From: Alphaproteobacteria bacterium
GTDB lineage: Bacteria > Pseudomonadota > Alphaproteobacteria > Caulobacterales > Aquidulcibacteraceae
Length of the DNA stretch: 44,100 bases
Direction of reading: 5' to 3'
Assembly (NCBI GenBank): GCA_016124255.1
Contig: WGOB01000040.1
Coordinates: 1 to 44,100, forward strand
In this document: positions 17,574-41,628 of the stretch, one piece after another
How the letters are laid out: each line of letters starts with the position of its first letter
Numbering within the stretch: position 1 is the first letter of the stretch
Program-made: the position numbers and the translations under genes
Notes under the pieces: generated by a model
What the model was told of the DNA's origin: nothing
The model's input: only the letters and a program-made list of their open reading frames with translations
Database searches by the model: none

Positions 17574-18269
17574 CTACTCGCAGATCGCGTAGTCGCCCAC
17601 GTCGAGATGGAAATGATCGGCGTGCGCGGCGTTGTACTCGGGCGACAGCACGGCGCGGAACACCCGGCACCCGCCGTCGCGCACAGCGCGCAGGAACTGC
17701 CCTTCCGCGCTCTTTGAGCCCCAGTCCGTCCGTACGCTGACCAACCGTCCGTCCGACAGACGAAAGCCGGCGATGTCGATGGCGTCGCCGGTGGCGTGAA
17801 AGCTGACGCGCCCTTCCGCGCGGCCGTAAATCCGGCGGCAGGAATAGGCGCCCAATGTCTCGATCCGCGACACGGCGGCGCCGCCGAGATGCGCACGCGC
17901 CGCTTCGGCGACGACCTCGCGCTCCCACACATAGAGCGCCGCGGCAAGCGCGCATGACATCCGCGGCGTCTGCGAATAGGGATGCGCCGATCGCGCCAGC
18001 GTCACCGCGCCGTCCAGGCGGCAGAAGCCACGCTCGGAGATATCCGGCGTCGGCGCCACCTCCAGCCTGGACAGCGAAATGAGCCCCATGCACGCATCGG
18101 AATCGCTGCGAAGTCTGGCCAGCCGCGCGGCCGTGAACGCGCCGACCGGATCCTCCAGATTGAGCCTGGCGAACGGACGATCCTGCGGCGGCAGCGTCAT
18201 CACGCCGGCGATCACAGCGATGGCCGCGATCAGCACAAGGCTCGCGGCGAACACACGCAGCGTCCACAT
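17574..18269 (-). CDS. Extensin-like C-terminal domain protein (envelope)
   Basis: 231 residues. One N-terminal hydrophobic segment (about 4-27) acts as a signal anchor. The rest matches the bacterial extensin-like_C family: CMGLISLSRLEVAPTPD, FCRLDGAVTLA, SYSCRRIYGR-type cysteines (AYSCRRIYGR), FHATGDAIDIAGFRL and a terminal AAHADHFHLDVG. The His/Asp pattern (HATGDAID and HADHFH) is that of LAS-type peptidases, so a peptidoglycan-related metallopeptidase function is plausible but unproven. Convergent with the preceding secreted protein, 5 bp apart. Confidence 0.88.
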   Translation of the reverse strand: MWTLRVFAASLVLIAAIAVIAGVMTLPPQDRPFARLNLEDPVGAFTAARLARLRSDSDACMGLISLSRLEVAPTPDISERGFCRLDGAVTLARSAHPYSQTPRMSCALAAALYVWEREVVAEAARAHLGGAAVSRIETLGAYSCRRIYGRAEGRVSFHATGDAIDIAGFRLSDGRLVSVRTDWGSKSAEGQFLRAVRDGGCRVFRAVLSPEYNAAHADHFHLDVGDYAICE

Positions 18270-19405: not shown

Positions 19406-20806
19406 ATGGCCGACATCTTCCTCTCCTACGCCAGCGAGGATCGCGACCGGGTCCGCCCGCTTGCGGAGGCGCTGCAGGCGCGGGGCTATTCCGTCTGGTG
19501 GGACCGCTCCATCGCCGCCGGCGACGATTTCAGCGCCGTCATCCAGCGCGAACTCGCCGCAGCCAAAGCCGTGATCGTGGTGTGGACAGAGCGCTCGGCG
19601 GCAAGCGTCTGGGTGCGCGACGAGGCCGGGCGCGCCCGCGACGACGGGCGCCTCGCGCCGGTCATGCTCGACCCTGTGGACATCCCGCTCGGCTTCGGCG
19701 CGATCCAGGCGGAGGACTTCACCCGCTGGAACGGCGCGCCGAACGCCGCGCAGATGCAGATCCTTGAGGAGGCGCTCAAAGCCAAGATCGAAGGCCGCGG
19801 CGTCGATGGCGCGGCCGTCGCGCAGAAGCGCCGCCGGCTGATGAACCGCATCCGCATCGTCTCGGTGCTCACCGTGCTCGCGGCCGTGGTCGGGATCGCT
19901 GCGGGACTGAACACCATCTTCAACCGCCCCGATGTGATCATCGATGGCGGCAAGCAGCAGGACAACATGGCGCATCTCCTGCGCCTGCTCGACGAAGGCA
20001 AGTTGAGCGCGGAACAGGCGCTCGAGCTTGCGCGCCTGTTGGAGACGCAGACCTTCGCCAGCGCCGACGCCGCGCTGGCCGAGCCTGCGCCGCCGAGTGG
20101 ATCGACCGCGTCGCCGTCTCCGTCCGCCCCCGGCCGCACCGAGGATGCGCCAAGCGCTGCGGAGGAGGCCGAGGCGCCCGTCGCGATGGCGAGCGCCGTC
20201 ACCGCGGGCGAGTTCAACGAGGCCGCGCGCGAAGCGTACACACAAGCCGCGCAAGCGCTCTTGCAGGATTCCGATCCGCGGGTGCGCACCGCCGTGCTCG
20301 AACTCCGCAACGACGCAACGCGCGACGGCGCAATGCAGACGCTGTGGGACATCGCCCGCGACAGCCCGCCGGAAAAGCAGACGCTGATCTACACGGTCTG
20401 CGGCGCGGTCGGGCAGGCGGACGATCATCCGCTCGGCCTGCGCGCACTCGAACGCCTGCGCGAACTGCGCCCGGAGGACGCCGAGGTCTGGCGCATGCTG
20501 AGCTTCGGGCTCAGCCGCTCGAACCGCGCCGCGGAAGCCCAAGGCGCAGCGCTCGTCAGCGAAGGGCTGACGACCGCAAATCCCGCCGTGCGCGAAGAGC
20601 GCCTGCGCGCCGCGCTGCCGACGCTGCGCGACAGCGCGATCGCGCGCGATTTCGTGGAGCGCCAGGCCGACGACGCATGCGTCGCCGCGGTCGAGGGCGG
20701 CGCAGCGAGCGGCGCGCAGCAGGAGCGTTGCGTCGAACGCCCCAGCGTGCGCACGCGCATCCCGGCGGAACGCCTCGCGCCAACGCTGCAGCAGCGCAGC
20801 AATTAG
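19406..20806 (+). CDS. TIR domain protein with transmembrane segment and TPR-like C-terminal region
   Basis: 466 residues. Residues 1-130 are a TIR domain: DIFLSYASEDRDRVRPLAEA, GYSVWWDRSIAAGDDF (BB-loop region) and VIVVWTERSAASVWVRDEA. The WVRDE (69-73) matches the W-V-x-x-E that holds the catalytic Glu of NAD-cleaving TIR domains, so NADase activity is possible. A single transmembrane helix is at about 150-169, a Pro/Ser/Ala linker at 210-260, and a helical repeat region (about 265-430, with ALERLRELRPEDAEVWRML) that looks TPR-like and would be periplasmic. The start follows GCGGGAG. The next gene begins 12 bp downstream. Role (defence, signalling or envelope scaffold) is not determinable. 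Confidence 0.85.
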   Translation: MADIFLSYASEDRDRVRPLAEALQARGYSVWWDRSIAAGDDFSAVIQRELAAAKAVIVVWTERSAASVWVRDEAGRARDDGRLAPVMLDPVDIPLGFGAIQAEDFTRWNGAPNAAQMQILEEALKAKIEGRGVDGAAVAQKRRRLMNRIRIVSVLTVLAAVVGIAAGLNTIFNRPDVIIDGGKQQDNMAHLLRLLDEGKLSAEQALELARLLETQTFASADAALAEPAPPSGSTASPSPSAPGRTEDAPSAAEEAEAPVAMASAVTAGEFNEAAREAYTQAAQALLQDSDPRVRTAVLELRNDATRDGAMQTLWDIARDSPPEKQTLIYTVCGAVGQADDHPLGLRALERLRELRPEDAEVWRMLSFGLSRSNRAAEAQGAALVSEGLTTANPAVREERLRAALPTLRDSAIARDFVERQADDACVAAVEGGAASGAQQERCVERPSVRTRIPAERLAPTLQQRSN

Positions 20807-20818
20807 GCTCGCTGCACG

Positions 20819-21430
20819 ATGCGGCGATCGGCGTTGGCGGCGCTCTGTCTGCTCGTTGCGATCGGGTGCGGCGGTCCCGCGCCATCGGAAGAGACGCGGT
20901 TTCGCGCCTGGCTTGCGGAAAATTCGGCCCGGGGCGCCGCGTTCTCCCGCTTTGAGGCGCTGCTTGCGGAGTCCGGGGTCGCGAGCGTCGTGCCGAACCA
21001 TCAGCTTTGGCGGGTCGATCAGCTGCGTGCAGCGTGCGCCGACACGGCGTTCCAGCAGCCGCCAGAGCGCTTGTGGCGCAATATCGTTCCGACGCTGCGG
21101 TACATCCGGGATCATGTCAGACCTGCGCTCGGATCGCTCCAGGTGGTCTCGGGGTATCGTTCGCAGGCGTTCAACGCTTGCATCGAGGGCGCCTCCCGAA
21201 GCGCCCATCTCGACTTCGCCGCGCTGGATCTCGAGTCGGTCGACCGCGCCGTCACCCGCGATGTGCTGATCGCACGCCTATGCCCGCTTCATGCGCGCGG
21301 CGGCGCGGCGGGTCGCATCGGGCTGGGCATCTACGCCGGACGCCGCTTTCACCTCGACGCGCGCGGCCATCGCGGCTGGGGCTCCGATCATCGGCGCGCG
21401 AGTTTTCCGTGCGTGGAAGACGGCGAGTGA
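20819..21430 (+). CDS. M15-type D-Ala-D-Ala carboxypeptidase-like lipoprotein
   Basis: 203 residues. The lipobox is AIGC (Cys17). The mature domain has VVSGYRSQAFNACIEGAS, SAHLDFAALDLE and FHLDARGHRGWG. These give the His-x(n)-Asp and distal H-x-D arrangement of M15A peptidases, which trim peptidoglycan stem peptides. The usual SxHxxGxAxD pattern is modified to S-A-H-L-D-F-A-A-L-D. The gene starts 12 bp after the TIR gene, so both are probably co-transcribed; whether they cooperate is unknown. Confidence 0.84.
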   Translation: MRRSALAALCLLVAIGCGGPAPSEETRFRAWLAENSARGAAFSRFEALLAESGVASVVPNHQLWRVDQLRAACADTAFQQPPERLWRNIVPTLRYIRDHVRPALGSLQVVSGYRSQAFNACIEGASRSAHLDFAALDLESVDRAVTRDVLIARLCPLHARGGAAGRIGLGIYAGRRFHLDARGHRGWGSDHRRASFPCVEDGE

Positions 21431-21440
21431 CCGGCGTCTG

Positions 21441-22043
21441 CTAGGAACAGCCCTCGACAAGCTGAATCGCCGGTCCGCCGGCGTGGATCGCCGTCACCGC
21501 GCCGTCGCCGCCGATCTCGTAGCGGACGCCGCGCGCGGCGGCGTCCTCGACATAGGTCTCGCCTGATGGGCGCGGCTGCGTCCACACCGTGATGTAGTGC
21601 GCGGGCGGGTCCTGATATTTGTGCGGCTCGGCGCGTGCGCGATCGCCATAGGCGCGCATGACATCGGCGGCCGAGGCGCCGAGGCCGAAGCCGTCGCCGG
21701 TCTCGACCGCCGCGTCGCGGATCAGCGAAATGCGCGAGAGCCGCTCCTCGATCACCATTACGAGCATGCCGGCAGGCGCGCGCGCCGGGTGGAGTTCCTC
21801 GCAGGCCTCGGGTTCGGCGCCGCCGGCCGCGTTGGGCGCATCGTCGTGGCCGAGTGCAGCCTCGATCTCGGCGCGCGTCATGCCGATGCGCAGCGGGCCC
21901 CAGCCTTCCGCCGTCAGCGCTTGGGCGTCCGCGGACGCGTCGGTCTCTGTTTCGCTCGATGGCGTCAAAGGCCCGGCGTCCGTCGCCGGCTGGCCGCACG
22001 CGACCGCCGCCGCAGCCGCCAGAACGATGATCACGTGGCGCAT
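21441..22043 (-). CDS. Putative lipoprotein of unknown function
   Basis: 200 residues from ATG 22043 (GGAGG at 5-nt spacing). The signal peptide ends in lipobox AVAC (Cys16). A low-complexity Asp/Thr/Ser spacer leads into a domain beginning GWGPLRIGMTRAEIEAALG. This is the pattern of small exported proteins that carry an SmpA/BamE- or DUF-like fold (GMTxxEVxxxLG) and it ends with a Gly-rich segment. Two late cysteines are present. Specific function is unknown. Convergent with the M15 gene. Confidence 0.75.
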   Translation of the reverse strand: MRHVIIVLAAAAAVACGQPATDAGPLTPSSETETDASADAQALTAEGWGPLRIGMTRAEIEAALGHDDAPNAAGGAEPEACEELHPARAPAGMLVMVIEERLSRISLIRDAAVETGDGFGLGASAADVMRAYGDRARAEPHKYQDPPAHYITVWTQPRPSGETYVEDAAARGVRYEIGGDGAVTAIHAGGPAIQLVEGCS

Positions 22044-22075: not shown

Positions 22076-22642
22076 TCAGCGCGTTCCGGCGCGCAGGAAC
22101 AGCGCCTTCGCCGCGCCGTAGGTGCGTTCGTCGAGCGTTTCGAACGCGCCGACGTCCGGGGTTTCGTCGGCGCCGCACTCGAACACCACGAGCGCGTCGT
22201 CGGTGATCCAGCCGCCCGGCGCAAGGCGCGACAAAGCCAGGCTCCCAAGCCCGCGCCCATAAGGCGGGTCCAGGAACACCAAGTCGAACGGGGCGCCGAG
22301 CCCTGCGGGGCGCGTCCCGAGATCGGTCGCGTCGCGGCGGTGCACGCGCGTTCGTCCGAACACGGAGAGCGTCTCGATGTTGCGCCGGATCGCGCCGCGC
22401 GCGGCTTCGTCCGTCTCCACGAACAGCGCGAACGCCGCGCCGCGGGAGAGCGCCTCCAGCCCCATCGCCCCGGCGCCGGCGAAGAGATCGAGCACGCGGC
22501 GGCCCTCAAGGCCTGGAGACCAGTCCGCGTGCGCGAGAATGTTGAAAATCGCCTCGCGCGCGCGTTCGCCGGTGGGGCGTGTGCCCTGGCCCGCCGGCGC
22601 GGCCAGCGCGCGCCCCCTGAACTCGCCGCCCACGATCCGCAT
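22076..22642 (-). CDS. rsmD: 16S rRNA (guanine(966)-N(2))-methyltransferase
   Basis: 188 residues. It begins MRIVGGEFRGRALAAP and contains TRPTGERAREAIFNIL, the SAM-binding LDLFAGAGAMGLEALSRG (51-68) and catalytic motif DPPY (125-128), the RsmD family signature. It methylates N2 of G966 in 16S rRNA during 30S assembly. An alternative ATG at 22681 adds 13 residues, but the family usually starts at MRIVGG. Downstream on the same strand is the lipoprotein gene, 32 bp away. Confidence 0.95.
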   Translation of the reverse strand: MRIVGGEFRGRALAAPAGQGTRPTGERAREAIFNILAHADWSPGLEGRRVLDLFAGAGAMGLEALSRGAAFALFVETDEAARGAIRRNIETLSVFGRTRVHRRDATDLGTRPAGLGAPFDLVFLDPPYGRGLGSLALSRLAPGGWITDDALVVFECGADETPDVGAFETLDERTYGAAKALFLRAGTR

Positions 22643-40239: not shown

Positions 40240-41628
40240 CTAATTCCCTTGCATGATCTGCAGGCGGAGTTCCTGGGCCGTGCGCTGTTGCGCTTCCGCG
40301 GCTGCGGGGGCGTCGGACTCGGCGGGCGGCGGGGGATCCTCCGTCTGCGGCGTCAACAGAACCGGCCCGCCAGGCAGCGCGGGCTCGGGCGCAACGGGCG
40401 CCGCCGGGATCGGCTCATCGGCCACCGGCGCGGTCTCCAGCACGGCTGCAGTTTCTTCCGGCGTCTTCTCTTCTTCGAGCAGCGGGGGCGCCAGCCCCAG
40501 ATCGCGTTCGCGCTGGCGCAGCATCGCCATGCGGCCGCTGATCTCAGCTGAGTGGCGGGTCTCGGGGAATGACGCCAGGAACGATTGGTAGGCCTGCACG
40601 GTGTCGGTCTCGCGCGCGCGGCCGAGATAGTCGATCTCAAGGCCCTCTAGCGCCGCCTCTGCAGGCTGGCGATACTTGCCCGGCTCGCCGTCGAGGAACG
40701 CGCGCAGCGCCAGGGGATCGCTCTTGTCGAGACCTGACCAGCCGGCTTCGGCTGCAGCCGAGGTCCGTCCGGACTGGATCATCGAATAGCCGCCGATGCC
40801 GATGCCGGCGACGACCAGAAAGGTGACCACGCCGACGATCGCCAGCCGCATCGAGGATCCGCCGCGGGACTTTTCCTCTCCGCTTTGGCGGGCCTCGTAG
40901 TCATTATCGTAGCGACGCGGCGGCCGCGGTTCATAGCCGCTGCGGCCTTCTCCATACGCGCTGAATCTTGGTCCCTCGTCGGACGTCGGCTCATACTCGG
41001 TCCGTCGCGCCCGGCCGACATCGCTTGCGTCCGCGGCGCGTTCGAGCGCAGCCCAATCGGAAGCCGCTTCGCTGTGCGCCGGATCGTCCGGCGCAATCTC
41101 AGGCTCGACATAAGCCGGGGCTGGCTCAGGCGCGGGCCGGCGCGGGGGCGCGTAATGTGGCGCCGGCGGGGGCGGCGGCGGCTCAGGCTCGTAATCGCCG
41201 AACGCATCGAACGCGGCGGCCTCCTCGGCGGCGCGCGCGGCGTCCTCGTTCTCCTGGGCGGCGAGCAGCACGCCCTCGATCGCGGCCTTGAGGTTGAGCC
41301 AGCCGGCGAACGCGTCGTCGCCGCGCCAGCCTGTCAGATCAATCGAGGGATCGCCCCGGAAGAGTTCGGGCGCGGGGGTATTGTGCATCCGCGCATGGAT
41401 GAGCTTGCCGGCGCCGCGGGCGTGGCGGGCCTCGGCGACCAAGTCGGCGTTGCCGGCCGAGCGCGGCGACCAGAGCGCCACCGCGACCTCGGCGCCGCCC
41501 ATGGCGCCGCGCATCAGGCGCGGCGTCAGGTCCGTGGCGGTCTCGTGGCCGAGCGCGCGCAGCTTCGTCGCCAGCGCGTGCGCGGGCGCTGAATCCTGCT
41601 GGGCGTGGATGATCACGACCCCGGCCAT
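40240..41628 (-). CDS. TIR-like membrane protein with Pro-rich linker and extracytoplasmic C-terminal domain
   Basis: 462 residues. Residues 1-125 look like a divergent TIR fold: VVIIHAQQDSAPAHALATKL, EVAVALWSPRSAGNADLVAEA (Glu66 sits where NAD-cleaving TIR domains have their Glu, but the usual Trp is absent). A Pro/Glu/Ala-rich linker runs 145-255, including PEPPPPPPAPHYAPP. A single transmembrane helix (261-283) comes next, then helical repeats with LASFPETRHSAEISGRMAML, and an Ala/Pro-rich tail. The architecture mirrors the TIR protein at 19406-20806. The TIR call is moderate because BB-loop residues are not classic. Confidence 0.65.
   Translation of the reverse strand: MAGVVIIHAQQDSAPAHALATKLRALGHETATDLTPRLMRGAMGGAEVAVALWSPRSAGNADLVAEARHARGAGKLIHARMHNTPAPELFRGDPSIDLTGWRGDDAFAGWLNLKAAIEGVLLAAQENEDAARAAEEAAAFDAFGDYEPEPPPPPPAPHYAPPRRPAPEPAPAYVEPEIAPDDPAHSEAASDWAALERAADASDVGRARRTEYEPTSDEGPRFSAYGEGRSGYEPRPPRRYDNDYEARQSGEEKSRGGSSMRLAIVGVVTFLVVAGIGIGGYSMIQSGRTSAAAEAGWSGLDKSDPLALRAFLDGEPGKYRQPAEAALEGLEIDYLGRARETDTVQAYQSFLASFPETRHSAEISGRMAMLRQRERDLGLAPPLLEEEKTPEETAAVLETAPVADEPIPAAPVAPEPALPGGPVLLTPQTEDPPPPAESDAPAAAEAQQRTAQELRLQIMQGN

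Follow-up and report, generated by a model that had tools for sequence, protein, structure and literature searches.

The window analysed here, a stretch of 44,100 nucleotides from an alphaproteobacterium of the family Aquidulcibacteraceae, encodes a membrane-anchored TIR protein, and it is this protein alone that forms the conserved unit, occupying the same place in the chromosome across related bacteria. The M15-type peptidase gene that follows it is a bystander neighbour in the window's genome and not a conserved partner. Most of what is known about bacterial TIR proteins comes from phage-defence loci with a patchy distribution; a membrane TIR protein that has its own TPR ectodomain and is chromosomally inherited at one place is a tractable case for roles of TIR domains outside such islands.

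Domain architecture of the TIR protein

The gene and the parts of its product are located as follows:

19406..20806, forward strand: TIR–membrane helix–SHOCT-like–linker–TPR protein, 466 amino acids (open reading frame; Pfam; 20 orthologs)
19415..19738, forward strand: TIR domain, residues 4-111 (PF13676, E=1.5e-24; all VIA-align rows shown are TIR-containing structures)
19622..19624, forward strand: Glu73, the presumed catalytic glutamate (invariant; aligned with the glutamate of BtTir, AbTir and PdTir)
19856..19912, forward strand: single membrane helix, residues 151-169, predicted N-in (mean hydropathy 2.25 over 19 residues)
19979..20044, forward strand: SHOCT-like helical motif 3' of the membrane helix, residues 192-213 (PF22746, below the cut-off here)
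20054..20176, forward strand: Ala/Pro/Ser-rich linker of variable length, residues about 217-257 (pLDDT below 50 at residues 216-258)
20204..20800, forward strand: TPR-like alpha solenoid, presumed periplasmic, residues 267-465, with Cys332, Cys425 and Cys442 (AlphaFold2; VIA-align; cysteine pattern)

The TIR domain scores 87.2 bits against the TIR_2 family PF13676, whose cut-off is 28, and the same family is matched at E≤0.1 by all 17 aligned members. The SHOCT-like family PF22746 reaches E=0.0062 in the window protein and is matched at E≤0.1 by 13 of the 17, with a best value of 5.9e-6; cytoplasmic contexts are usual for this motif, which speaks against the periplasmic reading given below. 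The whole-protein AlphaFold2 model, which was built from 11 sequences (mean pLDDT 75.3, pTM 0.46), comprises the TIR domain, a membrane region and linker of low confidence, and an alpha solenoid that starts at residue 267; with its low-confidence membrane region, the model is silent on assembly. Taken together, the PF13676 match, the hydropathy of residues 151-169 and the AlphaFold2 model reproduce the order of TIR domain, one membrane helix, linker and TPR-like region that an earlier note had read from the DNA. In three of five pairs, dN/dS is higher in the linker than in any other part of the protein. The TIR proteins of the window and of its closest relative, G002, are shorter than the other aligned orthologs (466 and 468 versus 488-556 amino acids). 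It was also observed that both are shortened at the C-terminal end, which corresponds to window positions 20600-20800, with the two C-terminal cysteines still kept.

The putative NADase site

The W-V-x-x-E motif to which the earlier note had drawn attention is found in the open reading frame as W69-V70-R71-D72-E73. At position 69, the orthologs have W or F and, in one case, L; invariant across the alignment of 17 sequences (16 orthologs plus the window protein) is V70-R71-D72-E73-A74. Glu73 is also invariant in 20 of 20 sequences of a wider set of TIR domains, some of which belong to other proteobacteria and an archaeon according to the record titles. In a profile of this set, column 73 aligns with the glutamate of BtTir (7uxr), AbTir (7uwg, 8g83) and PdTir (3h16), which we take to be the catalytic residue of these proteins. 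The position of the glutamate in the predicted active site had been set as a check, and it holds: AlphaFold2 places residue 73 in a predicted helix, residues 68-79, so that the glutamate of the window protein lies in the helix that follows strand C and aligns with that of known bacterial TIR enzymes, as expected for the sequence of a TIR NADase. In VIA-align comparisons, the best 50 rows for the TIR model (Z 13.1-17.5) all contain TIR domains, and the Toll-type, SPARTA, SARM1 and AbTir TIRs are the nearest among the matches listed. Judged by sequence and predicted structure, an enzyme-type site is present in the TIR domain, and the protein is probably an enzyme that cuts NAD inside the cell.

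TIR domains self-assemble, and 21 TIR matches are found in the window's genome; the domain might therefore act as a non-enzymatic scaffold, which gathers the other TIR proteins of the cell at the membrane. However, the enzyme-type glutamate is invariant and would be needless for a pure scaffold, and we regard this alternative as quite unlikely compared with an NAD-cutting enzyme.

Membrane helix, topology and C-terminal domain

The segment 151-169 is the lone hydrophobic segment of the protein and lies after the basic sequence KRRRLMNRIR; by hydropathy, the protein thus has the receptor layout of one membrane helix between the TIR and the C-terminal domain. No cysteine is found upstream of the helix in 19 of 20 sequences, whereas the C-terminal part contains one cysteine (Cys332 in the window protein) in all 20 and, with the exception of G001, a further pair (19 of 20). 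Because of the basic residues on the N-terminal side of the helix and this cysteine pattern, a periplasmic C-terminus, with the TIR domain in the cytoplasm, fits the sequence. However, three C-terminal cysteines leave at least one of them unpaired, which counts against the periplasmic reading.

Folded alone from three sequences, the C-terminal domain is modelled by AlphaFold2 with a pLDDT of 91.7 and a pTM of 0.85. The best Foldseek rows for this model are TPR proteins such as MamA and PEX5 (E 0.028 or worse), and VIA-align also returns TPR structures, with Z up to 12.6 over about 100 residues, a range which is also seen for common helical arrangements. The Pfam family TPR_12 is weakly matched at E≤0.1 by 12 of the 17 aligned members (best 0.0036) and TPR_2 by five (best 9e-7), with none for the window protein itself at E≤0.1.

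Orthologs, chromosomal place and inheritance

A search for the TIR protein in 61 genomes gave some match in 38 and matches over at least 412 of the 466 residues in 17, including the window's own. When 150 genomes of the order were searched with a profile built on the C-terminal domain, 17 gave clear matches (E 5e-97 or better). All 17 belong to the window's family and contain one clear match apiece, always inside the TIR open reading frame; the other 14 of the 31 sampled family genomes have no TIR ortholog. Seven further rows of this profile search are weak and partial (E 7e-6 to 1e-4), six of them outside the family and one an extra row in G029. The 20 loci that were compared with the window come from both lists, which overlap, four genomes being new from the 150-genome list.

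The place of the gene is marked by a downstream neighbour:

22076..22642, reverse strand: rsmD-like methyltransferase gene, conserved downstream neighbour (downstream of the TIR gene in 17 of 20 loci)

This gene, presumably rsmD, is convergent with the TIR gene in 16 of these loci and on the same strand in one (G001). The convergent genes lie within 0.9 kb of each other in 15 loci and about 2.1 kb apart in G019. In the three other loci, rsmD is outside the stretch (G003, where it lies on another contig, and G157) or the contig ends first (G012). Further genes of the neighbourhood are terC, present in 15 of the 20 stretches, and rsuA and tadA, each present in 13, counts that are limited by the ends of the stretches. 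The upstream side of the TIR gene is variable among loci; in the window, an Extensin-like_C protein (PF06904, E=4.3e-52) is encoded there at 17574-18269 on the reverse strand. G034 has no TIR ortholog, yet rsmD, terC, rsuA and tadA are in place, and 11 of 12 sampled genomes of its genus have the ortholog; the TIR gene thus seems to be dispensable in G034.

Over five pairs, dN/dS ranges from 0.03 to 0.11 in the TIR domain, from 0.06 to 0.53 in the TPR part and from 0.07 to 0.35 when the whole protein is taken, with synonymous sites near saturation in some of the pairs. The TIR protein is under purifying selection, and these values for the TIR domain together with the 20 orthologs establish that the membrane-anchored TIR protein is real and above chance. 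Over 19 genomes, the pairwise distances computed for the TIR protein and for rsmD are correlated (r=0.755, permutation p=0.0002); since rsmD adjoins the TIR gene, the correlation points to a shared history of the locus, to which any relatedness of the genomes adds. Both the conserved place and this shared history speak in favour of a standing function and against a recently acquired island gene, and they are in line with resident phage defence as well as with a role in envelope physiology.

TIR-rich genomes and the question of phage defence

The window's genome contains its 21 TIR_2 matches, 20 of which are above the cut-off, in 3.34 Mb. Judged by hydropathy, a segment of membrane strength is present in at least 14 of the 21 TIR open reading frames; five of the 21 were scanned as incomplete frames (L083, L085 and L095 lack the 3' end, L096 and L098 the 5' end). 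Besides the TIR gene described here, one other of the 21 falls in the window; it is a weak match at 41308-41619 on the reverse strand (PF13676, E=3.1e-6), in a 465-amino-acid open reading frame with one hydrophobic segment (L099). The partners of the TIR domains at the loci L080-L100, labelled by eye, are WD40-like, FGE-like, PPC-like, Roc-COR-like, kinase-like and reverse-transcriptase-like. Among the 31 family genomes, TIR matches number 9-25 (median 17) in the 17 with the ortholog and 0-13 (median 1) in the 14 that lack it; high counts are also found outside the family, with up to 19 in G064. Two adjoining TIR genes were seen in G029, G019, G001, G013, G010, G023, G036, G026 and G032 (L127-L135, stretches that were chosen for two nearby TIR matches), one of them encoding a protein of about 340-370 amino acids with a single hydrophobic helix and the other a protein of about 290-330 amino acids with three.

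Many bacterial TIR proteins are anti-phage effectors, and the TIR protein could be a resident abortive-infection protein, that is, the same machine, which is triggered by phage at the envelope and stops the cell via loss of NAD+. The abundance of TIR domains in the genome, 20 of them above the cut-off, speaks for this, as do matches to PADLOC TIR models (best E 1.6e-12). However, all 14 PADLOC matches lie within residues 1-107, which is the TIR part, and two NCBIfam defence models fall far short, with 39.1 bits against a cut-off of 600 and 32.9 bits against one of 220. In addition, the place beside housekeeping-type genes and the distances that track rsmD are unlike patchy defence islands. Abortive infection is therefore a possible but rather doubtful reading of the protein.

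The M15-type neighbour gene

Two further genes lie between the TIR gene and rsmD in the window:

20819..21430, forward strand: M15_3-type peptidase-like lipoprotein gene, 203 amino acids, neighbour only (PF08291)
21441..22043, reverse strand: short lipoprotein-like open reading frame without a Pfam family (best E 0.96), found at 0 of 20 loci of relatives

The earlier note had correctly placed an M15-type lipoprotein gene 12 bp behind the TIR gene and on the same strand (TIR gene 19406-20806, M15 gene 20819-21430). The M15 protein matches Peptidase_M15_3 (PF08291) above the cut-off (E=4.8e-7, 30.3 versus 23.2 bits) and has the metal-site pattern H...A-x-D...H-x-D, which all 13 aligned M15 proteins share; both are features of an M15_3 peptidase. 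The window's M15 protein and the three homologs nearest to it have a lipobox-like cysteine. From its sequence, the protein looks intact, and phmmer found no solved relative at E≤1.

The two genes were suggested to form a unit in which the TIR protein, together with the M15 peptidase, senses the state of the peptidoglycan; the spacing of 12 bp on one strand and the finding of no terminator-like site between the genes speak for it. This unit did not survive comparison with relatives, in which the pair should have been conserved. M15 was found at 0 of the 20 orthologous TIR loci (tblastn E≤1e-4 in stretches of 6-19 kb), 19 of which can be judged, as the contig of G012 stops 15 bp past the TIR gene. 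Homologs of the M15 protein occur at E≤0.001 in 14 of 61 genomes and at E<1e-20 in 12, the window's own included; the other 11 genomes contain 12 strong loci. Four of these 12 were searched for TIR genes in stretches of 15-16 kb, and none was found within about 7-8 kb of the M15 homolog. Among 37 genomes of the family, four have both genes, 13 TIR alone, eight M15 alone and 12 neither, four weak M15 rows being excluded from the count (E 6e-4 to 1e-3; L043, L044, L046, L047), and a positive association is absent (one-sided Fisher p=0.92). In G002, which has a TIR protein of 85% identity, the interval between the TIR gene and rsmD cannot be aligned with that of the window and holds unrelated DNA with a different open reading frame of 230 amino acids, which has hydrophobic stretches (L060:10041-10733, reverse strand). 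As the closest relative holds a different open reading frame there, gene turnover seems to take place in this interval.

The conserved TIR–M15 pair is thus rejected. Since the peptidoglycan-sensing idea was built on the pairing, joint sensing by the two proteins is highly improbable, and the question of a TIR-peptidase pair is closed for the window locus. A scan for promoters and terminators gave nothing beyond what shuffled sequences give; in the window organism, the two genes could locally share a transcript.

A model for the TIR protein

The reading that we favour, and to which we would give about an even chance, is that of a stand-alone, one-component transmembrane TIR enzyme, which is gated by its periplasmic TPR domain. 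The N-terminal TIR domain would lie in the cytoplasm, one helix would cross the inner membrane, and the TPR solenoid would reside in the periplasm. There, the TPR domain may bind a ligand or partner, or lose one, thereby altering the packing of the protein in the membrane. The altered packing would let the TIR domains cluster and thus switch on the cleavage of NAD+, with ADP-ribose or a cyclic ADP-ribose as the product. Cleavage might either starve the cell or produce a signal, and its purpose could be anti-phage defence or a response to envelope stress.

It is tempting to go further and speculate that the protein is a counterpart, in layout, of Toll-type receptors and belongs to the standing gene set of its lineage. 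The periplasmic TPR domain would then read the state of the envelope, and the TIR domain would answer with an NAD-derived messenger as part of ordinary physiology, rather than as mobile phage defence, in cells with many membrane TIR proteins. This extension is tentative, and we consider it improbable in this full form.

Comparison with known systems

The best sequence matches among solved structures are BtTir, AbTir and PdTir (7uxr, 7uwg/8g83 and 3h16; E 4e-12 to 1e-8 with profile A4). They share the TIR fold and the aligned glutamate with the window protein; however, their solved chains are TIR-sized (137-184 amino acids) and lack a TPR part, whereas the window protein has a TPR-like part. 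SPARTA and SARM1 TIRs are NADases, and in VIA-align, the window TIR model matches the SPARTA TIR-APAZ protein with Z 13.3-16.3 and the SARM1 TIR with Z 13.1-15.6. The locus does not resemble SPARTA in its gene content, as the TIR protein carries no APAZ domain and no Argonaute is found by Pfam among seven scanned neighbours; likewise, no ThsA-type effector of Thoeris is encoded by these seven. By Pfam, they are of the MutL, Extensin-like, radical-SAM, M15 and TerC types, with one PPC-like protein below the cut-off and one without a family. A search of 37 genomes for STALD, the Thoeris-type receiver, gave no match and is uninformative, since the controls were equally silent.

The combination of a TIR domain with TPR repeats, and that of a TIR domain with a membrane helix, are known layouts or present in other loci (PMC7075850; L057, L058). 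According to a passage of PMC7075850, the 'group 6' bacterial TIR proteins are mainly actinobacterial, exceed 700 amino acids and resemble the window protein in having the TIR domain at the N-terminus and TPR repeats at the C-terminus; that passage does not mention a membrane helix, whereas the window protein has one and is 466 amino acids long. L057 and L058 share the TIR domain, one hydrophobic helix (residues 147-165 and 148-166) and, by eye, a TPR-like tail with the window protein; however, their tail has an 'IAVLPF' region (by eye), and tblastn of the window protein reached only residues 1-161 and 1-104, respectively. In PDB entry 9m0n, a 'Tetratricopeptide repeat protein' of 824 amino acids, residues 1-79 match the TIR profile (E=0.0018). 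Among the literature matches listed for TIR-TPR proteins, only animal work appeared, and the layout of TIR domain, membrane helix and TPR domain was in none of the titles and beginnings of abstracts listed from the open-licence literature.

If the predicted topology is right, the window protein shares a single span, a cytoplasmic TIR domain and a repeat domain on the outside with animal Toll-like receptors. However, the order is reversed, as the TIR domain is N-terminal, and TPR repeats take the place of LRRs, so that the resemblance is one of layout only. Relative to these systems, as far as the sources listed cover them, the new elements of the window protein are its lineage-specific ectodomain and its conserved chromosomal place.
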